A stretch of DNA of 34,352 bases from the NCBI GenBank assembly GCA_021159005.1, contig JAGGSN010000077.1, positions 1 to 34,352 on the forward strand, read 5' to 3'. Below, piece by piece: positions 9,782 to 32,088 of this stretch. Both the position numbers and the translations under genes were made by a program. The stretch is from Candidatus Zixiibacteriota bacterium. Its GTDB lineage: Bacteria; Zixibacteria; MSB-5A5; UBA10806; 4484-95. Below the pieces are notes generated by a model. It was not told where the DNA came from. It was given only the letters and a program-made list of their open reading frames with translations, and did no database searches. Positions within the stretch are counted from its first letter, which is position 1. Every line of letters begins with the position of its first letter.

Positions 9782-10477
9782 TTACCTTCCTCTCAAACCG
9801 GCGATTTTTACAGCGCCGCGATGGTAGCCATCCGGGAACAGACGCTCAAGCTCATCCAGCTCGATATTATTTGCTTCACAGGTCTCGTAAATGGTTGGAA
9901 CCGTTTTATATTGATTGTGATAGTCTCTAAGAAAATGGATGATTTGCCAGTGCTTTTCAGTTAGCTCTCCCTTGGGTATTTTCATATCATAAGCTCTATA
10001 TAAGGCATAGTTCTCATCCCATGCCTCAGGGTCAACAAGAAATCCGCGGACATCAATAGTATAGGTTTTTTCTTCTACAGATGGTGTAGTATCAGTATAG
10101 GTTTTTCCTTTTGCGGTTGGAGCAACAGCTTCAGAGGGTGTTGGCAATGCTGTATAGCTGAGATAACCTTCCTTATATGTGATGCCTGCAATTTTACAGA
10201 CACCCCTTTGATAACCGGAAGGAAAGAGTTCTTTAAGTTGTTTTAGGTGAAGTTTATTCTGTCTACAGGCTACATAAATCAAGGGACATTTACCTGTTTT
10301 TCTAAATGTATCACGAATGAAATGAATAATATTCCAGTGTTTTTCTGTTAAGCCATTTGGGATTTCAAGCTGTAATGCCATTCCCTCAGCAAAATTTTCA
10401 TCCCATTGATTAAAATCTTCTAAAAAATTATACGGATCTACTTTATAAGCAGCACCGTTATAAGTAAAAGAACTCAT
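9782..10477 (-). CDS. Tandem DsrC/TusE-like protein lacking the catalytic Cys
   Basis: The 231-residue chain holds two DsrC-fold domains, at about 8-105 and 138-231, joined by a Thr/Pro-rich linker (106-137). Both show the family pattern: an N-terminal D-x-x-x-FL...W-[DN]-E, LTEKHWxIIHF[IL]RD, then LFPxGYxRG and KIAG. Single-domain DsrC/TusE proteins carry sulfur as a persulfide or trisulfide on a penultimate Cys (CysA) that pairs with CysB 11 residues earlier. Domain 1 keeps CysB (C94) but has Tyr at the CysA position (Y105). Domain 2 has Val at CysB (V223) and stops before the CysA position. Sulfur carriage as in classical DsrC is therefore unlikely, and a regulatory or scaffold role is possible. 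The ATG at 10477 is chosen because GGAG lies just upstream. It follows hypB by 39 bases. Confidence 0.88.
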   Translation of the reverse strand: MSSFTYNGAAYKVDPYNFLEDFNQWDENFAEGMALQLEIPNGLTEKHWNIIHFIRDTFRKTGKCPLIYVACRQNKLHLKQLKELFPSGYQRGVCKIAGITYKEGYLSYTALPTPSEAVAPTAKGKTYTDTTPSVEEKTYTIDVRGFLVDPEAWDENYALYRAYDMKIPKGELTEKHWQIIHFLRDYHNQYKTVPTIYETCEANNIELDELERLFPDGYHRGAVKIAGLRGR

Positions 10478-10516
10478 ATCCTCTCCTTTATTTATAGTCA
10501 TTTATGTTTCGGTCAT

Positions 10517-11179
10517 TTATAAACTTTCTGTACTTAGAGTCGTAAGCCAATCATACCATTTTTCAAGGCCTTCTCCTGTTCGACAGGACAACTCGAATAT
10601 TTTAAAATCAGGGTTAATACTCAGGGCGTTTTTCTTTACCCGTCCCATATCGAAATCCGAGAAACCCAGCAAATCGGTTTTATTTATTATCAACACCGCT
10701 GAGCGACGAAACATCGCCGGATATTTCACGGGTTTATCATCTCCTTCAGCAGTGCTTATCAGCACAACTTTCATATCCTCACCCAGATCATAGCTTGCCG
10801 GACAAACCAGATTGCCGACATTTTCGATGAACAGCATATCAACATCATCAAGGTTAATTCCATTGAGCGCCTTGCCAACCATTCGGGCATCAAGATGGCA
10901 GGCTCCGCCGGTAATAATCGGCCTTACGATTTTCCCGCCAGCTTTGGAAAGGCGCAGAGCATCATTATCCGTTTGTACATCTCCGGCAATTAGCGCCATT
11001 TTCAATCTGCCGCTCAGTGTCTTCAATGTTTTTTCCAACAAACTGGTTTTCCCCGAACCCGGAGAACTGACAAGATTAAGCGAAACAACATTTTTCTCGT
11101 GAAGTTTTAAACGTATCTCTGCTGCCAGCCGGTCATTTTCTGATAAAACTTTTTTCTCAATTATTATTTTTTTATTCAT
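10517..11179 (-). CDS. hypB: Nickel-incorporation GTPase HypB
   Basis: The 220-residue SIMIBI-class GTPase helps load nickel into [NiFe]-hydrogenase and sometimes other Ni enzymes. Visible motifs are the P-loop SPGSGKTS (39-46), GDVQTDND, IENVGNLVCP and the guanine motif NKTD (166-169). The metal-binding residues of the G domain are present as C94-H95 and C126, with the same 32-residue spacing as in E. coli HypB. The N-terminal CxxC high-affinity site and the His-rich stretch of some HypB proteins are absent. It lies downstream of hypA with a 226-base gap that carries a repeat fragment, and upstream of the tandem DsrC-like gene. Confidence 0.94.
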   Translation of the reverse strand: MNKKIIIEKKVLSENDRLAAEIRLKLHEKNVVSLNLVSSPGSGKTSLLEKTLKTLSGRLKMALIAGDVQTDNDALRLSKAGGKIVRPIITGGACHLDARMVGKALNGINLDDVDMLFIENVGNLVCPASYDLGEDMKVVLISTAEGDDKPVKYPAMFRRSAVLIINKTDLLGFSDFDMGRVKKNALSINPDFKIFELSCRTGEGLEKWYDWLTTLSTESL

Positions 11180-11405: not shown

Positions 11406-11747
11406 TTATGTCTCCACCAGGTAATCTATATTTAGTTCCTCTCCCTGAATTACCTCGATATCTGCCGAATCGCAATAGGGACACCGGAAAATAAAATCAT
11501 TTACACTAAAAGCTTGCTCACACGAGCGGCATTTCCCCTTTACGGGTATCCGCTTGATAACCAATTTGGTGCCAGCCAGAGGAGTATCAATAGTCGCCGC
11601 TTCGAAACCGAACGATAAGGCTTCCGGGTCAACACCGGTTAGGGCGCCAAGACGGATATTGATCTCAGCTACGCCCCTTAAATTGTGCTTTGCTATCTCA
11701 TTTTCTACTAATGTAATAATTTCCATGGCAATGCTAAGCTCATGCAT
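11406..11747 (-). CDS. hypA: Nickel metallochaperone HypA
   Basis: The 113-residue protein has the invariant N-terminal Met-His-Glu (MHELSIA), where H2 binds nickel. The zinc-binding domain carries two CxxC pairs, C73/C76 and C89/C92. HypA delivers Ni with HypB during [NiFe]-hydrogenase maturation and, in some bacteria, urease maturation. The start must be the ATG at 11747 because the His must be residue 2; a seven-codon upstream extension would bury it. GGAGG lies about 11 bases before this ATG. No hydrogenase or urease structural gene is in the window. It is divergent from the TetR gene. Confidence 0.95.
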   Translation of the reverse strand: MHELSIAMEIITLVENEIAKHNLRGVAEINIRLGALTGVDPEALSFGFEAATIDTPLAGTKLVIKRIPVKGKCRSCEQAFSVNDFIFRCPYCDSADIEVIQGEELNIDYLVET

Positions 11748-11974
11748 CCGGTCATTTTCCTCCAGCATTACATATATTAAACCAAATCAAATTATAATGA
11801 TTTTAGATAATCCCTTAGTTATTTCTTCCGTTTCTTGGTATGTAATTTGATTTTAACACGATGGACTAACTCCTAAATAGTCTTGGCAACCGATTTGCCT
11901 ACTTTACCTCTCACAGTAAAAGGGTCGGTGGTTTCAATTGCAAGAATTTTTGAGAGTTCCTTCGATTTTTTCTA

Positions 11975-12003
11975 TTGACAACAGAACACATTTTAGATAT
12001 TAT
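11975..12003 (+). promoter_or_regulatory. Sigma-70-type promoter of the tetR operon
   Basis: TTGACA (11975-11980) is followed, after exactly 17 bases, by TATTAT (11998-12003). The predicted start point, a few bases downstream, falls inside the inverted repeat at 12003-12026, as expected for a repressible promoter. Confidence 0.8.
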
Positions 12004-12026
12004 GTTGACCGAACAATCGGTCAACA
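12003..12026. promoter_or_regulatory. TetR-family operator (inverted repeat)
   Basis: A perfect 10-bp arm, TGTTGACCGA, is repeated as its reverse complement after a 4-base spacer. Sites with the TGACCGA/TCGGTCA core are typical of TetR/AcrR regulators. It overlaps the -10 end and lies 18 bases before the tetR start codon, so repressor binding should block both tetR and the downstream export genes. Confidence 0.85.
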
Positions 12027-12044: not shown

Positions 12045-12656
12045 ATGACGCCAAGAAAAATCGATAAATCGAAGAAAAAACAGACGATACTCTTAGCGGC
12101 TATTAAAGTTTTCAGTGAAAAAGGGGTAAAAAACGCCAAAATAGCTGATATTGCTTATGAGGCCGGAATTGGCAAAGGCACCATATACGAATATTTTCGC
12201 AGCCGGGATGAGATTTTCATAGAGACTTTCAACTATATGCTTAGAGAGATGAATAAGGAATTTATTAATGAACTACAAAAAACTAGACCGCCTGTGGATA
12301 AGATTAAAGCCATGAATAAAATCATCTTTTCTGGTCTGACCAAATTTACTGTTGAAACAGCCTCTATTTTCATTGATTTCTGGGCTGAGGGAATCAGGAA
12401 TCAGGGCTATAGCGGTAAAGGGATTATTAATCTTAAGGAACTTTATAATGAATTCAGGCAGGAATTAATGCAAGTTCTTGAAGATGGTATTAAAGCTGGT
12501 CAGTTTAGAAAAATAAATACTTTAGAGACTGCCTCGGCATTTTTAGCCTCAATTGATGGTTTGCTTCTGCAATGGATTATCGATCCAGCAGTTTTCAACT
12601 TGAAAAATGTCAGCGAAACAAATCTTGATATTTTTCTTAAGGGCATTGTGAAATGA
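12045..12656 (+). CDS. TetR/AcrR family transcriptional regulator
   Basis: This 203-residue regulator has the TetR helix-turn-helix at about 10-58 (ILLAAIKVFSEKGV, then IADIAYEAGIGKGTIYEYF). Residues 70-203 form the all-helical ligand and dimer domain, which is variable and gives no ligand clue. The strong operator just upstream implies autorepression. It precedes a LolA-like gene, a beta-barrel gene and an RND permease, an order in which TetR proteins often respond to a hydrophobic molecule handled by the exporter. The Shine-Dalgarno sequence is weak (AAGAAG). Confidence 0.92.
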   Translation: MTPRKIDKSKKKQTILLAAIKVFSEKGVKNAKIADIAYEAGIGKGTIYEYFRSRDEIFIETFNYMLREMNKEFINELQKTRPPVDKIKAMNKIIFSGLTKFTVETASIFIDFWAEGIRNQGYSGKGIINLKELYNEFRQELMQVLEDGIKAGQFRKINTLETASAFLASIDGLLLQWIIDPAVFNLKNVSETNLDIFLKGIVK

Positions 12657-23560: not shown

Positions 23561-24652
23561 ATGGCAATTTTTATTGATAATAAAACCAAGGTGATTGTGC
23601 AGGGTATTACCGGCCGCGACGGTTCGTTTCATACCCGGCAGATGATAGATTACGGCACTAAAGTTGTTGGGGGCGTTACCCCCGGCAAGGGCGGCTCCGA
23701 GATTTTTGGCGTGCGCATTTTCGATACGATGACAGAAGCGGTTAAAAAAACAAAAGCCAACACATCCATGATATTAGTACCGCCGCCTTTTGCGGTTGAT
23801 GCTATTTATGAGGCGATTGAATCGGGCGTATCTCTTGTTGTCTGCATCACAGAGGGCGTGCCAACAATAGACATGACAGGCGTTTACAATTATGCCCGGA
23901 TGAAAGGCGTACGGCTAATGGGTCCGAATTGTCCCGGATTGATTTCCCCCGGCGCCTCGAAAGTCGGCATCCTGCCGGCTCATATTTTCAAGAAAGGCAA
24001 TATTGGCGTAGTTTCGCGCTCCGGCACCCTCACTTATGAAGTCGTCTATAATCTTACTCAAAAGGGTCTTGGCCAATCGACCACAATAGGTATTGGCGGC
24101 GACCCGATAATAGGCACCAATTTCATCGATTGCCTTGAGGCTTTCGAGAATGACCCCCAGACCAAAGGCATAGTGATGATTGGCGAGATAGGCGGCTCTG
24201 ATGAGGAGATGGCAGCTGAGTATATTAAGAAGAACGTTACCAAGCCGGTTGTCGGTTTCATAGCCGGACAAACTGCTCCTCCCGGCAAACGCATGGGGCA
24301 TGCCGGCGCTATTATCTCCGGTTCATCCGGTTTAGCCGCTGACAAAATCAAGGCTTTAAATGCTGTCGGCATACCAGTAGCGGAAATTCCCTCTCAAATC
24401 GCTGATTTAATGATAGAAAAACTTGCTGAATACAAAAAGAAGATGGCCAAGAAAAAAGCAGCTAAAAAAACCGCTAAAAAGGCTGTCAGGAAAACTGCGA
24501 AAAAGAAAACAGTAAAAAAAGCCGCCAAGAAAAAAACATCAGTAAAGAAAACAGCTAAGAAAAAGGTAGTTAAAAAAACTGCTAAGAAAAAAGTTATAAA
24601 GAAAAAAGCAGCTAAGAAAAAAGCGGTTAAGAAAACTGCCAAAAAAAGATAA
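23561..24652 (+). CDS. sucD: Succinyl-CoA synthetase alpha subunit with a histone-H1-like C-terminal tail
   Basis: Residues 1-290 are a complete SucD: CoA-binding Rossmann domain ([14 protein letters not shown]), [10 protein letters not shown], and the phosphorylated active-site H247 in [10 protein letters not shown]. Normal SucD ends near residue 290. Here residues ~292-363 (nt 24434-24649) add about 70 residues made almost only of Lys, Ala, Thr and Val in KKTAKK/KKKAAKK modules, with no acidic residue. This resembles the C-terminal tail of histone H1 and of bacterial H1-like proteins and should be disordered and bind polyanions (DNA, RNA or polyphosphate). The tail is in frame, ends in a normal stop and is followed 17 bases later by the ferredoxin gene. 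The aconitase large subunit carries a similar tail. Confidence 0.95.
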
Positions 24653-30363: not shown

Positions 30364-32088
30364 ATGGGCAAAACCATAGCCGAAAAAATCATCAGCGAAC
30401 ATGTTAACCGTGATGTTAAAGCTGGCGAGATAGTCGCAACAGATGTTGATGTCTGTTTGGTTCAGGATGGCACGGGGCCATTAGCAGTCCGTCAGATTGA
30501 AAAGCTTGGCTTGGATAAGCTTGCCAATCCGGAACGGACGGTTTTATTTCTCGACCATTCAGCGCCGGCATCGCGAAAAGAGCTGGCTAACGACCATGCT
30601 TTTTTGCGCGATTTTGCCCGAAAAACAGGCTGTCGCTTATCCGATGTCGGGATGGGTATATGCCATACGGTTATCAATGAGCAGTATGTCAATCCCGGCG
30701 ATATACTTATAGGTGCGGACAGCCACACCTGCACTGGCGGTGCTCTATGCGCCTTTGCCACCGGTATGGGTTCTACCGATGTTGGGGTGGGCATGGCGCT
30801 TGGCAAAACCTGGTTCCGCATTCCCGAAACATATAAGGTATATGTTGAGGGTGAGTTTCCGATTGGTGTTTTCGCTAAAGACCTTATTTTGCACCTGATA
30901 GGCTTAATAGGCGCGGATGGCGCAACCTATAAGGCTTTGGAGTTTTGCGGGCCAACTATAGAAAACATGAGCATGGATGCCCGTTTTACACTGTCGAATA
31001 TGGCTGTCGAATCGGGCGCTAAAGTTGGCTTGATTGCCTCTGATGATATTACCAAAGCATATCTTGAGAGAATGGGACGCGGTTCAAAATGGCGTCCAAT
31101 CTCTGCCGATCCGGAGGCTGTATATGAACGTGTAATCGAAATTGATATATCTTCACTGGCGCCGACTGTATCTTTCCCTCATACTGTTGATAATACCCGT
31201 AAAGTCGATGAAGCCGCCGGTATAGTGATAGACCAAGTGTTTCTTGGCACCTGCACCAATTCCCGCCTTGAGGATTGGGAAACAGTTGCCCGCATTGTCA
31301 GAGACAAGAAGAAAGCTCCCGGCACGCGTTTTATTGCAGTTCCCGGTTCGAGATTAGTCGAAAAGCAAGTAATGGTAGCCGGTTATTACCAGATTTTAGC
31401 CGAGTTCGGGGTGATGTTTCTACCTCCCGGCTGCGGGCCGTGTGTCGGCGTGCATGGCGGTATCCCGGCTGATGGCGAGCGGTCATTAACCACGATGAAC
31501 CGCAATTTCAAAGGCCGGATGGGAAACCCCAAAGCTGAGATATATCTTGCCTCGCCTGCCACAATAGCGGCAACTGCCATTGAGGGAATTATAGCCGACC
31601 CGCGCAAATATAAGAAGGAACTGACCTCGAAATCGTTCCCCTCGATTGTAAACACGGAAGCCCTGAAAATAGCCGCCTCGACTGCCATCGAATCGCTTGA
31701 GAAAATCGCCTCAGATACTGCCGAGAAACTTGGTCCCAAATTAAAAGAAACATCCGATGTGGTTGAGCAAAAGACTAAAAAGATAATTAAAAAATACGAA
31801 CCGCAGGCAATAAAAGCCGCTGGCGAACTGGAAAAAACTATTAAAGTTCTGGCAAAAGATGCGACGAAAGCTATTAAAGACATCTTTAAAAGCAAAAAAC
31901 CAGAAACGAAGGTTGAGCCTGAGGTAAAAACGACAGCAACAAAGAAAACAGCTGTTAAGAAAAAAGCCGCGAAAAAGAAAGCAGTTATGAAAACAGCTGC
32001 AAAAAAAGCTTCAGCTAAAAAAACTACTATAAAAAAAACAGCCAAGAAAACGGCTCCTAAAACTACGCCTAAAACGAGGAGGAGCTAA
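30364..32088 (+). CDS. Aconitase/homoaconitase-family large subunit with helical and H1-like extensions
   Basis: Residues 1-416 are a LeuC-type large subunit with the three [4Fe-4S] Cys (C297 in LGTCTNS; C357 and C360 in PPGCGPC) and GADSHTCTGGA. In this gene context it most likely acts with the next gene as a two-subunit aconitase (citrate to isocitrate); 3-isopropylmalate or homoaconitate activity cannot be excluded by sequence. The protein is 574 residues, against about 420 in relatives. Residues ~417-510 are rich in Ala, Lys, Glu and Ile with heptad-like spacing and look like a long amphipathic helix. Residues ~511-574 (nt 31894-32085) form a Lys/Ala/Thr tail in KKTAKK modules. An A8 run at 32031-32038 lies in the tail. 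GGAGG precedes the ATG. Confidence 0.93.
   Translation: MGKTIAEKIISEHVNRDVKAGEIVATDVDVCLVQDGTGPLAVRQIEKLGLDKLANPERTVLFLDHSAPASRKELANDHAFLRDFARKTGCRLSDVGMGICHTVINEQYVNPGDILIGADSHTCTGGALCAFATGMGSTDVGVGMALGKTWFRIPETYKVYVEGEFPIGVFAKDLILHLIGLIGADGATYKALEFCGPTIENMSMDARFTLSNMAVESGAKVGLIASDDITKAYLERMGRGSKWRPISADPEAVYERVIEIDISSLAPTVSFPHTVDNTRKVDEAAGIVIDQVFLGTCTNSRLEDWETVARIVRDKKKAPGTRFIAVPGSRLVEKQVMVAGYYQILAEFGVMFLPPGCGPCVGVHGGIPADGERSLTTMNRNFKGRMGNPKAEIYLASPATIAATAIEGIIADPRKYKKELTSKSFPSIVNTEALKIAASTAIESLEKIASDTAEKLGPKLKETSDVVEQKTKKIIKKYEPQAIKAAGELEKTIKVLAKDATKAIKDIFKSKKPETKVEPEVKTTATKKTAVKKKAAKKKAVMKTAAKKASAKKTTIKKTAKKTAPKTTPKTRRS

Follow-up and report, generated by a model that had tools for sequence, protein, structure and literature searches.

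Positions 9782-10477 encode, on the reverse strand, a protein of 231 residues in which two DsrC domains stand in one chain, and this protein represents a two-domain subfamily of the DsrC superfamily that is real, well conserved and, as far as the open-access literature goes, apparently undescribed. All positions refer to the window, the whole stretch of 34,352 nucleotides that was analysed, from a genome of Candidatus Zixiibacteriota. The tandem proteins have a conserved cysteine pattern and probably a single origin, their genes often lie among hydrogenase genes, and they co-occur with Dsr and hydrogenase genes. The linkage to hydrogenase and hyp genes is the strongest functional lead, and the tandem DsrC may link hydrogen use to sulfur respiration. 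In our preferred reading, to which we give a probability of about 0.4, the protein would be a CysB-only half of a DsrC that acts in trans on a CysA-bearing DsrC, tying its operon to the redox state of DsrC.

The gene and its product are laid out below. Residues are numbered along the 239-residue open reading frame; subtracting 8 gives the numbering of the 231-residue protein (start at 10477) used in the first-pass annotation.

9782..10477, reverse strand: tandem (two-domain) DsrC-family protein, 231 aa (Pfam PF04358 twice; TIGR03342; ribosome-binding site)
10480..10489, reverse strand: ribosome-binding site AAAGGAGAGG for the start at 10477, read from the sequence
10178..10462, reverse strand: DsrC domain 1 (PF04358 profile 2-101 of 107, E=3.5e-21)
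9791..10078, reverse strand: DsrC domain 2, without C-terminal arm (PF04358 profile 2-101 of 107, E=1.5e-20)
10073..10171, reverse strand: disordered linker between the domains, with a Thr/Pro-rich stretch that is peculiar to this protein (residues 111-143 have pLDDT below 50; mostly gaps in relatives)

The open reading frame spans 9782-10501, with its first ATG at 10501. Since the ribosome-binding site directly upstream and the family alignment, in which the Met at this position is nearly invariant, both favour the ATG at 10477, the latter is almost certainly the true start. PF04358 (DsrC) matched the whole protein with E=6.3e-44 and 149.2 bits against a cut-off of 24.9, and it matched twice along the chain, which bears out the two DsrC domains proposed at first pass; a chance resemblance to DsrC was rejected by both PF04358 searches. 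With 120.6 bits in TIGR03342, whose cut-off is 53.5, the protein falls in the DsrC/TusE/DsvC superfamily. Considering that each PF04358 match covers only profile positions 2-101 of 107, the C-terminal arm is absent from both domains. The AlphaFold2 model, computed from four sequences (mean pLDDT 74.9), has two helical domains of DsrC type joined by a disordered linker, as the predicted internal pseudo-dimer would have it, and its pTM of 0.49 means that the relative placement of the two domains is not fixed by the model. All significant Foldseek matches (E up to 0.001) were solved DsrC structures, and the next match was a DsrC-family sulfurtransferase (E=1.2e-3). The Thr/Pro-rich stretch noted earlier is present in this protein, but 11 of its residues (125-135) are missing in 45 or 46 of 47 aligned tandems, and the linker was rejected as a family feature because it is mostly absent from relatives.

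To describe the cysteines we collected 75 distinct tandem proteins, 62 of type A, the type of the source gene, and 13 of type B, which have Cys at the CysB position of domain 2. One type B protein really has three domains (363 aa, L093:9395-10486) and is apparently the product of two tandem genes fused in frame. The positions concerned in the source gene are these:

10196..10198, reverse strand: CysB codon of domain 1, C102 (C94 in the earlier numbering); Cys in 75/75 tandems
10163..10165, reverse strand: Tyr codon at the CysA position of domain 1, Y113 (Y105); in the 62 type A proteins Tyr 37, Phe 7, Cys 2
9809..9811, reverse strand: Val codon at the CysB position of domain 2, V231 (V223); Val in 59/62 type A, Cys in all of the sister type
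10286..10288, reverse strand: extra conserved Cys codon, C72 (C64); Cys in 40/47 tandems
10265..10267, reverse strand: extra conserved Cys codon, C79 (C71); Cys in 44/47 tandems
9878..9880, reverse strand: conserved Cys codon of domain 2, C208 (C200); Cys in 44/47 tandems

The first-pass reading of these sites was accurate: C94 is the CysB kept in domain 1, Y105 occupies the CysA position 11 residues further on, and V223 stands at CysB of domain 2, after which the chain ends 8 residues on, three short of CysA. When the CysA and CysB states were tabulated over the 75 two-domain proteins, CysB of domain 1 (CysB1) was always Cys, and CysA was Cys in only 6. The earlier description of one remaining Cys is right for the CysA/CysB pair but not for the whole protein, as three further cysteines (C64, C71 and C200 in that numbering) are conserved in nearly all members. 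The complete type A pattern, namely C72, C79, CysB1, no CysA, C208 and Val at CysB of domain 2, occurs in 55/62 proteins. In 55/62 type A proteins the chain stops exactly 8 residues past the CysB position of domain 2, and this identical end excludes truncation by sequencing error. Of the two cysteines of canonical DsrC, the penultimate CysA on the C-terminal arm is absent from the tandem protein, and CysB is found in domain 1 as C102 and is replaced by Val in domain 2. Given that CysB1 is Cys in 75/75 proteins though CysA is absent in 69/75, CysB1 is retained without an intramolecular partner of the usual kind.

The search of GTDB genomes gave two named relatives, Ca. Abyssobacteria SURF_17 and Ca. 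Hatepunaea meridiana (Ca. Electryoneota). Tandem DsrC is carried by 34/132 genomes of the source phylum, by 2/3 of the Abyssobacteria group, one copy being frameshifted, and by 11/39 of the Hatepunaea phylum. In the frameshifted Abyssobacteria relative, the gene is split over two frames (L106, L107; G135:C127:52141-52804). The fusion thus occurs in at least three lineages of uncultured bacteria at the level of candidate phyla, and a single genome often has several paralogues. In a tree of 130 domains, for which support was uneven (32-99) and the alignment short, each domain class lay on one side of a single branch and the domain 1s of types A and B were adjacent. On this basis the fusion probably arose once. 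Recent duplication within the gene was rejected, as domain 1s cluster together and apart from domain 2s across phyla. The possibility raised at first pass that such tandems are common and already characterised is half borne out: they are common in these lineages, but we found no describing paper in the open-access literature, either on tandem DsrC or on DsrC in hydrogenase operons.

In the window, the tandem gene is the last of a run of three on the reverse strand, the other two being hyp genes:

11406..11768, reverse strand: hypA, first gene of the hypA-hypB-tandem DsrC run (TIGR00100, 89.5 bits against 88.1)
10517..11179, reverse strand: hypB, directly upstream of the tandem DsrC (TIGR00073, 272.6 bits against 121.2)

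HypA and HypB act in nickel insertion into [NiFe] hydrogenase. A second tandem copy of the source genome lies between a sulfhydrogenase-like operon, which includes a maturation protease, and hypF, hypD and hypE, and in other genera the tandems come after Mvh-like operons (mvhD, small and large subunit, protease). Hydrogenase or hyp genes were found within 6 kb on the same strand for 27/60 type A copies and in 10/19 genera, the genera being the safer count because the 60 copies include sister species. With two to four such loci in a genome of 3 Mb, chance alone would by rough estimate account for a few percent. The remaining 33/60 copies stand away from hydrogenase genes, which counts against action in trans on DsrC as a means of tuning hydrogenase operons. 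Other type A neighbours are a NifS-SelD fusion, APS kinase, an ABC transporter, response regulators, kinases, a Na/sulfate symporter, Tex and unrelated genes; by inspection of the loci, many of these non-hydrogenase neighbours are sulfur-related or signal-transduction genes.

Several further observations were made at these loci. The NifS-like cysteine desulfurase-SelD fusion adjoins the tandem DsrC or sits a gene or two off (L045, L055, L063, L101). In the Hatepunaea phylum (L118, L120, L121) the tandem comes directly after a 202-aa gene, which in L118 proved to be an APS kinase, and the next gene in L120 encodes a pyridine nucleotide-disulfide oxidoreductase. A small protein with a cyclic-nucleotide-binding domain is encoded between the HydB- and HydG-like genes of sulfhydrogenase-like operons (L006:11744-12211 and five other loci). 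In the window itself, a palindrome, TGTTGACCGATTGTTCGGTCAACA, at 12003-12026 lies between hypA and a divergent TetR gene (12045-12656), at the start of the latter, and is probably its TetR operator. Elsewhere in the window, a succinyl-CoA-synthetase-like protein (23561-24652) and an aconitase-like protein (30364-32088) bear long Lys/Ala-rich, histone-H1-like tails at their ends.

Whether the genome also has a canonical DsrC and dsrAB was a point raised at first pass, and both are present, together with dsrMKJOP-like genes: dsrA and dsrB lie with a canonical DsrC gene on contig C231. The same operon encodes a DsrL-like flavoprotein and a CobB/CbiA-type protein, the latter probably DsrN, and has genes whose domains correspond to those of DsrM, K, O and P; a dsr gene set with DsrL would fit Zixibacteria (PMC7596348). 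Across 98 relatives, for which presence tables were compiled by hand, type A occurred in 19/55 genomes with hypD and 0/43 without it, and in 16/38 genomes with dsrA and 3/60 without it. Where hypD and dsrA were both present, type A was found in 16/24 genomes compared with 3/74 of the others (Fisher p=6e-10; permutation within families p=5e-5). Type B showed no correlation with hypD among the same 98 relatives (p=0.77). Two observations count against action in trans on another DsrC: three genomes have type A without dsrA, and in G097, which is 83% complete and has four tandem copies, no canonical DsrC was seen. There is a precedent for tying DsrC to Hdr-type electron transfer, since an interaction of D. 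vulgaris DsrC with the FlxABCD-HdrABC complex has been reported (PMC10504309).

Type B stands in an operon of its own, which we compared at nine loci (L042, L057, L058, L059 and L124-L128) from two phyla. It encodes an HTH17 protein at most loci, a single DsrC, a DsrM-like and a DsrK-like protein, and the tandem DsrC. In 9/9 loci the single DsrC keeps CysA and has Tyr or Phe at CysB, and the co-encoded tandem has CysB in both halves. Nothing else hints as strongly at a disulfide between the proteins as this complementary loss of CysA and CysB. At L058 the gene of the CysA-only DsrC (G018:C4:84631-84924) contains an in-frame TAG and is either disabled or affected by a sequence error.

Based on these patterns, we propose that the tandem protein may be a half-site DsrC, that is, a pseudo-dimer that keeps the fold, a conserved docking segment and the domain-1 CysB and has lost the sulfur-binding CysA arm. 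The trisulfide cycle of canonical DsrC would not be possible for such a protein alone. Instead, its CysB thiol would form a mixed disulfide with the CysA arm of another DsrC, which would be canonical DsrC in the source genome and the CysA-only DsrC in the sister type, and domain 2 would serve docking. Type A would then report or buffer the redox state of the DsrC pool or its load of sulfur, and would adjust the operon with which it is encoded; for the source gene, this would be nickel insertion and through it the supply of [NiFe] hydrogenase. A role as sulfur or redox sensor, suggested at first pass, remains plausible. On the other side, C72 and C79 could pair with CysB inside domain 1 instead, and we count this against a disulfide in trans. 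A bolder form of the proposal seems to us rather unlikely: the redox cysteines of DsrC would be split over two proteins to give a true intermolecular heterodisulfide, with the sister operon encoding both halves and its own DsrMK-like reductase, and type A tying [NiFe]-hydrogenase operons to the Dsr pool through the CysB half.

Other roles have to be weighed against this one. The protein might be an operon-specific transcription regulator, in which the HTH-like part of the DsrC fold, doubled into a built-in dimer, binds the promoter of its own operon and the cysteines form a redox or sulfide switch. Genomes with several paralogues, each by a different operon, would fit this idea, as would the response regulators and histidine kinases among the neighbours, a net charge of about +2 in the domain-1 helix region, and the weak LexA and winged-helix matches, none of them significant, that Foldseek returned beyond the DsrC structures. 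However, the matching region of domain 2 is acidic (about -2), the mean pI is 6.4, and no motif above shuffles was common to the sequences upstream of hypA and of the source genome's hydrogenase operon, a comparison of low power. Conservation along the protein also speaks to this point. It peaks around CysB1 (0.90) and at the domain-2 C-terminus (0.92) and lies between 0.35 and 0.82 elsewhere; within a genome, paralogues that stand among different genes share 73-85% identity at residues 201-239 of domain 2 and 44-67% outside 72-107 and 201-239. The helix region is among the parts most alike between differently placed paralogues, which is the reverse of what operator specificity predicts, and the likeness of the CysB1 and domain-2 C-terminal segments suggests a shared protein partner rather than operon-specific DNA. 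We regard a transcription regulator as possible but doubtful.

Less likely still, the tandem protein may be an assembly or protection factor that acts post-transcriptionally by binding a Hyp protein or a [NiFe] hydrogenase that is still immature or exposed to sulfide. Linked copies usually come directly after a gene for maturation, be it that of the protease, HypB or HypE, and do so in sulfhydrogenase-like as well as Mvh-like operons. However, more than half of all copies are away from hydrogenase genes, many hydrogenase-bearing relatives have no tandem, and the tie to dsrA is left unexplained. We consider it very improbable that the domain-1 CysB carries persulfide, moving sulfane sulfur from a desulfurase or polysulfide to sulfhydrogenase or SelD-type enzymes. 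Copies do adjoin the NifS-SelD fusion and APS kinase, but in DsrC of A. vinosum sulfur is bound only at CysA (Cys111), CysB (Cys100) being irrelevant to binding (PMC3397948), and CysA is absent here. It is therefore unlikely that a protein with CysB alone carries persulfide in the usual sense, and by this analogy the role of disulfide partner, as in our preferred reading, would fit it better.

How sulfate reducers balance hydrogen metabolism against sulfite reduction is an open question. A conserved DsrC derivative that stands beside hydrogenase maturation genes, mostly where both pathways coexist, offers a concrete protein to test. In the sister operon, where one protein bears CysA and another CysB, the proposed disulfide chemistry of DsrC becomes testable using separable parts.

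Compared with known systems, the tandem protein is closest to canonical DsrC, the gamma protein of dissimilatory sulfite reductase (TIGR03342, PF04358), with which it shares the fold, the family and CysB in domain 1, and which co-occurs with it in the source genome. It differs in having two domains and no CysA, in a domain 2 without CysB and arm, and in the place of its gene, which, unlike that of canonical DsrC, is outside the dsr operon and often among hydrogenase genes. TusE, of the tRNA 2-thiouridine sulfur relay, belongs to the same superfamily and likewise has a single Cys of the CysA/CysB pair, but TusE keeps CysA, usually without CysB, whereas the tandem is the reverse; the protein scores 65 bits against the TusE model NF008562, whose cut-off is 191. 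The RspA group (Venceslau et al. 2014) is said to comprise DsrC relatives without both cysteines and with a proposed regulatory function. Loss of CysA and a proposed regulatory role would be shared with that group, while the tandem has two domains and keeps CysB in 75/75 proteins. The sister tandem type is the same fusion, probably of one origin, and is set apart by CysB in both domains, by the lack of linkage to hydrogenase genes and by its place in a conserved DsrMK-like operon.
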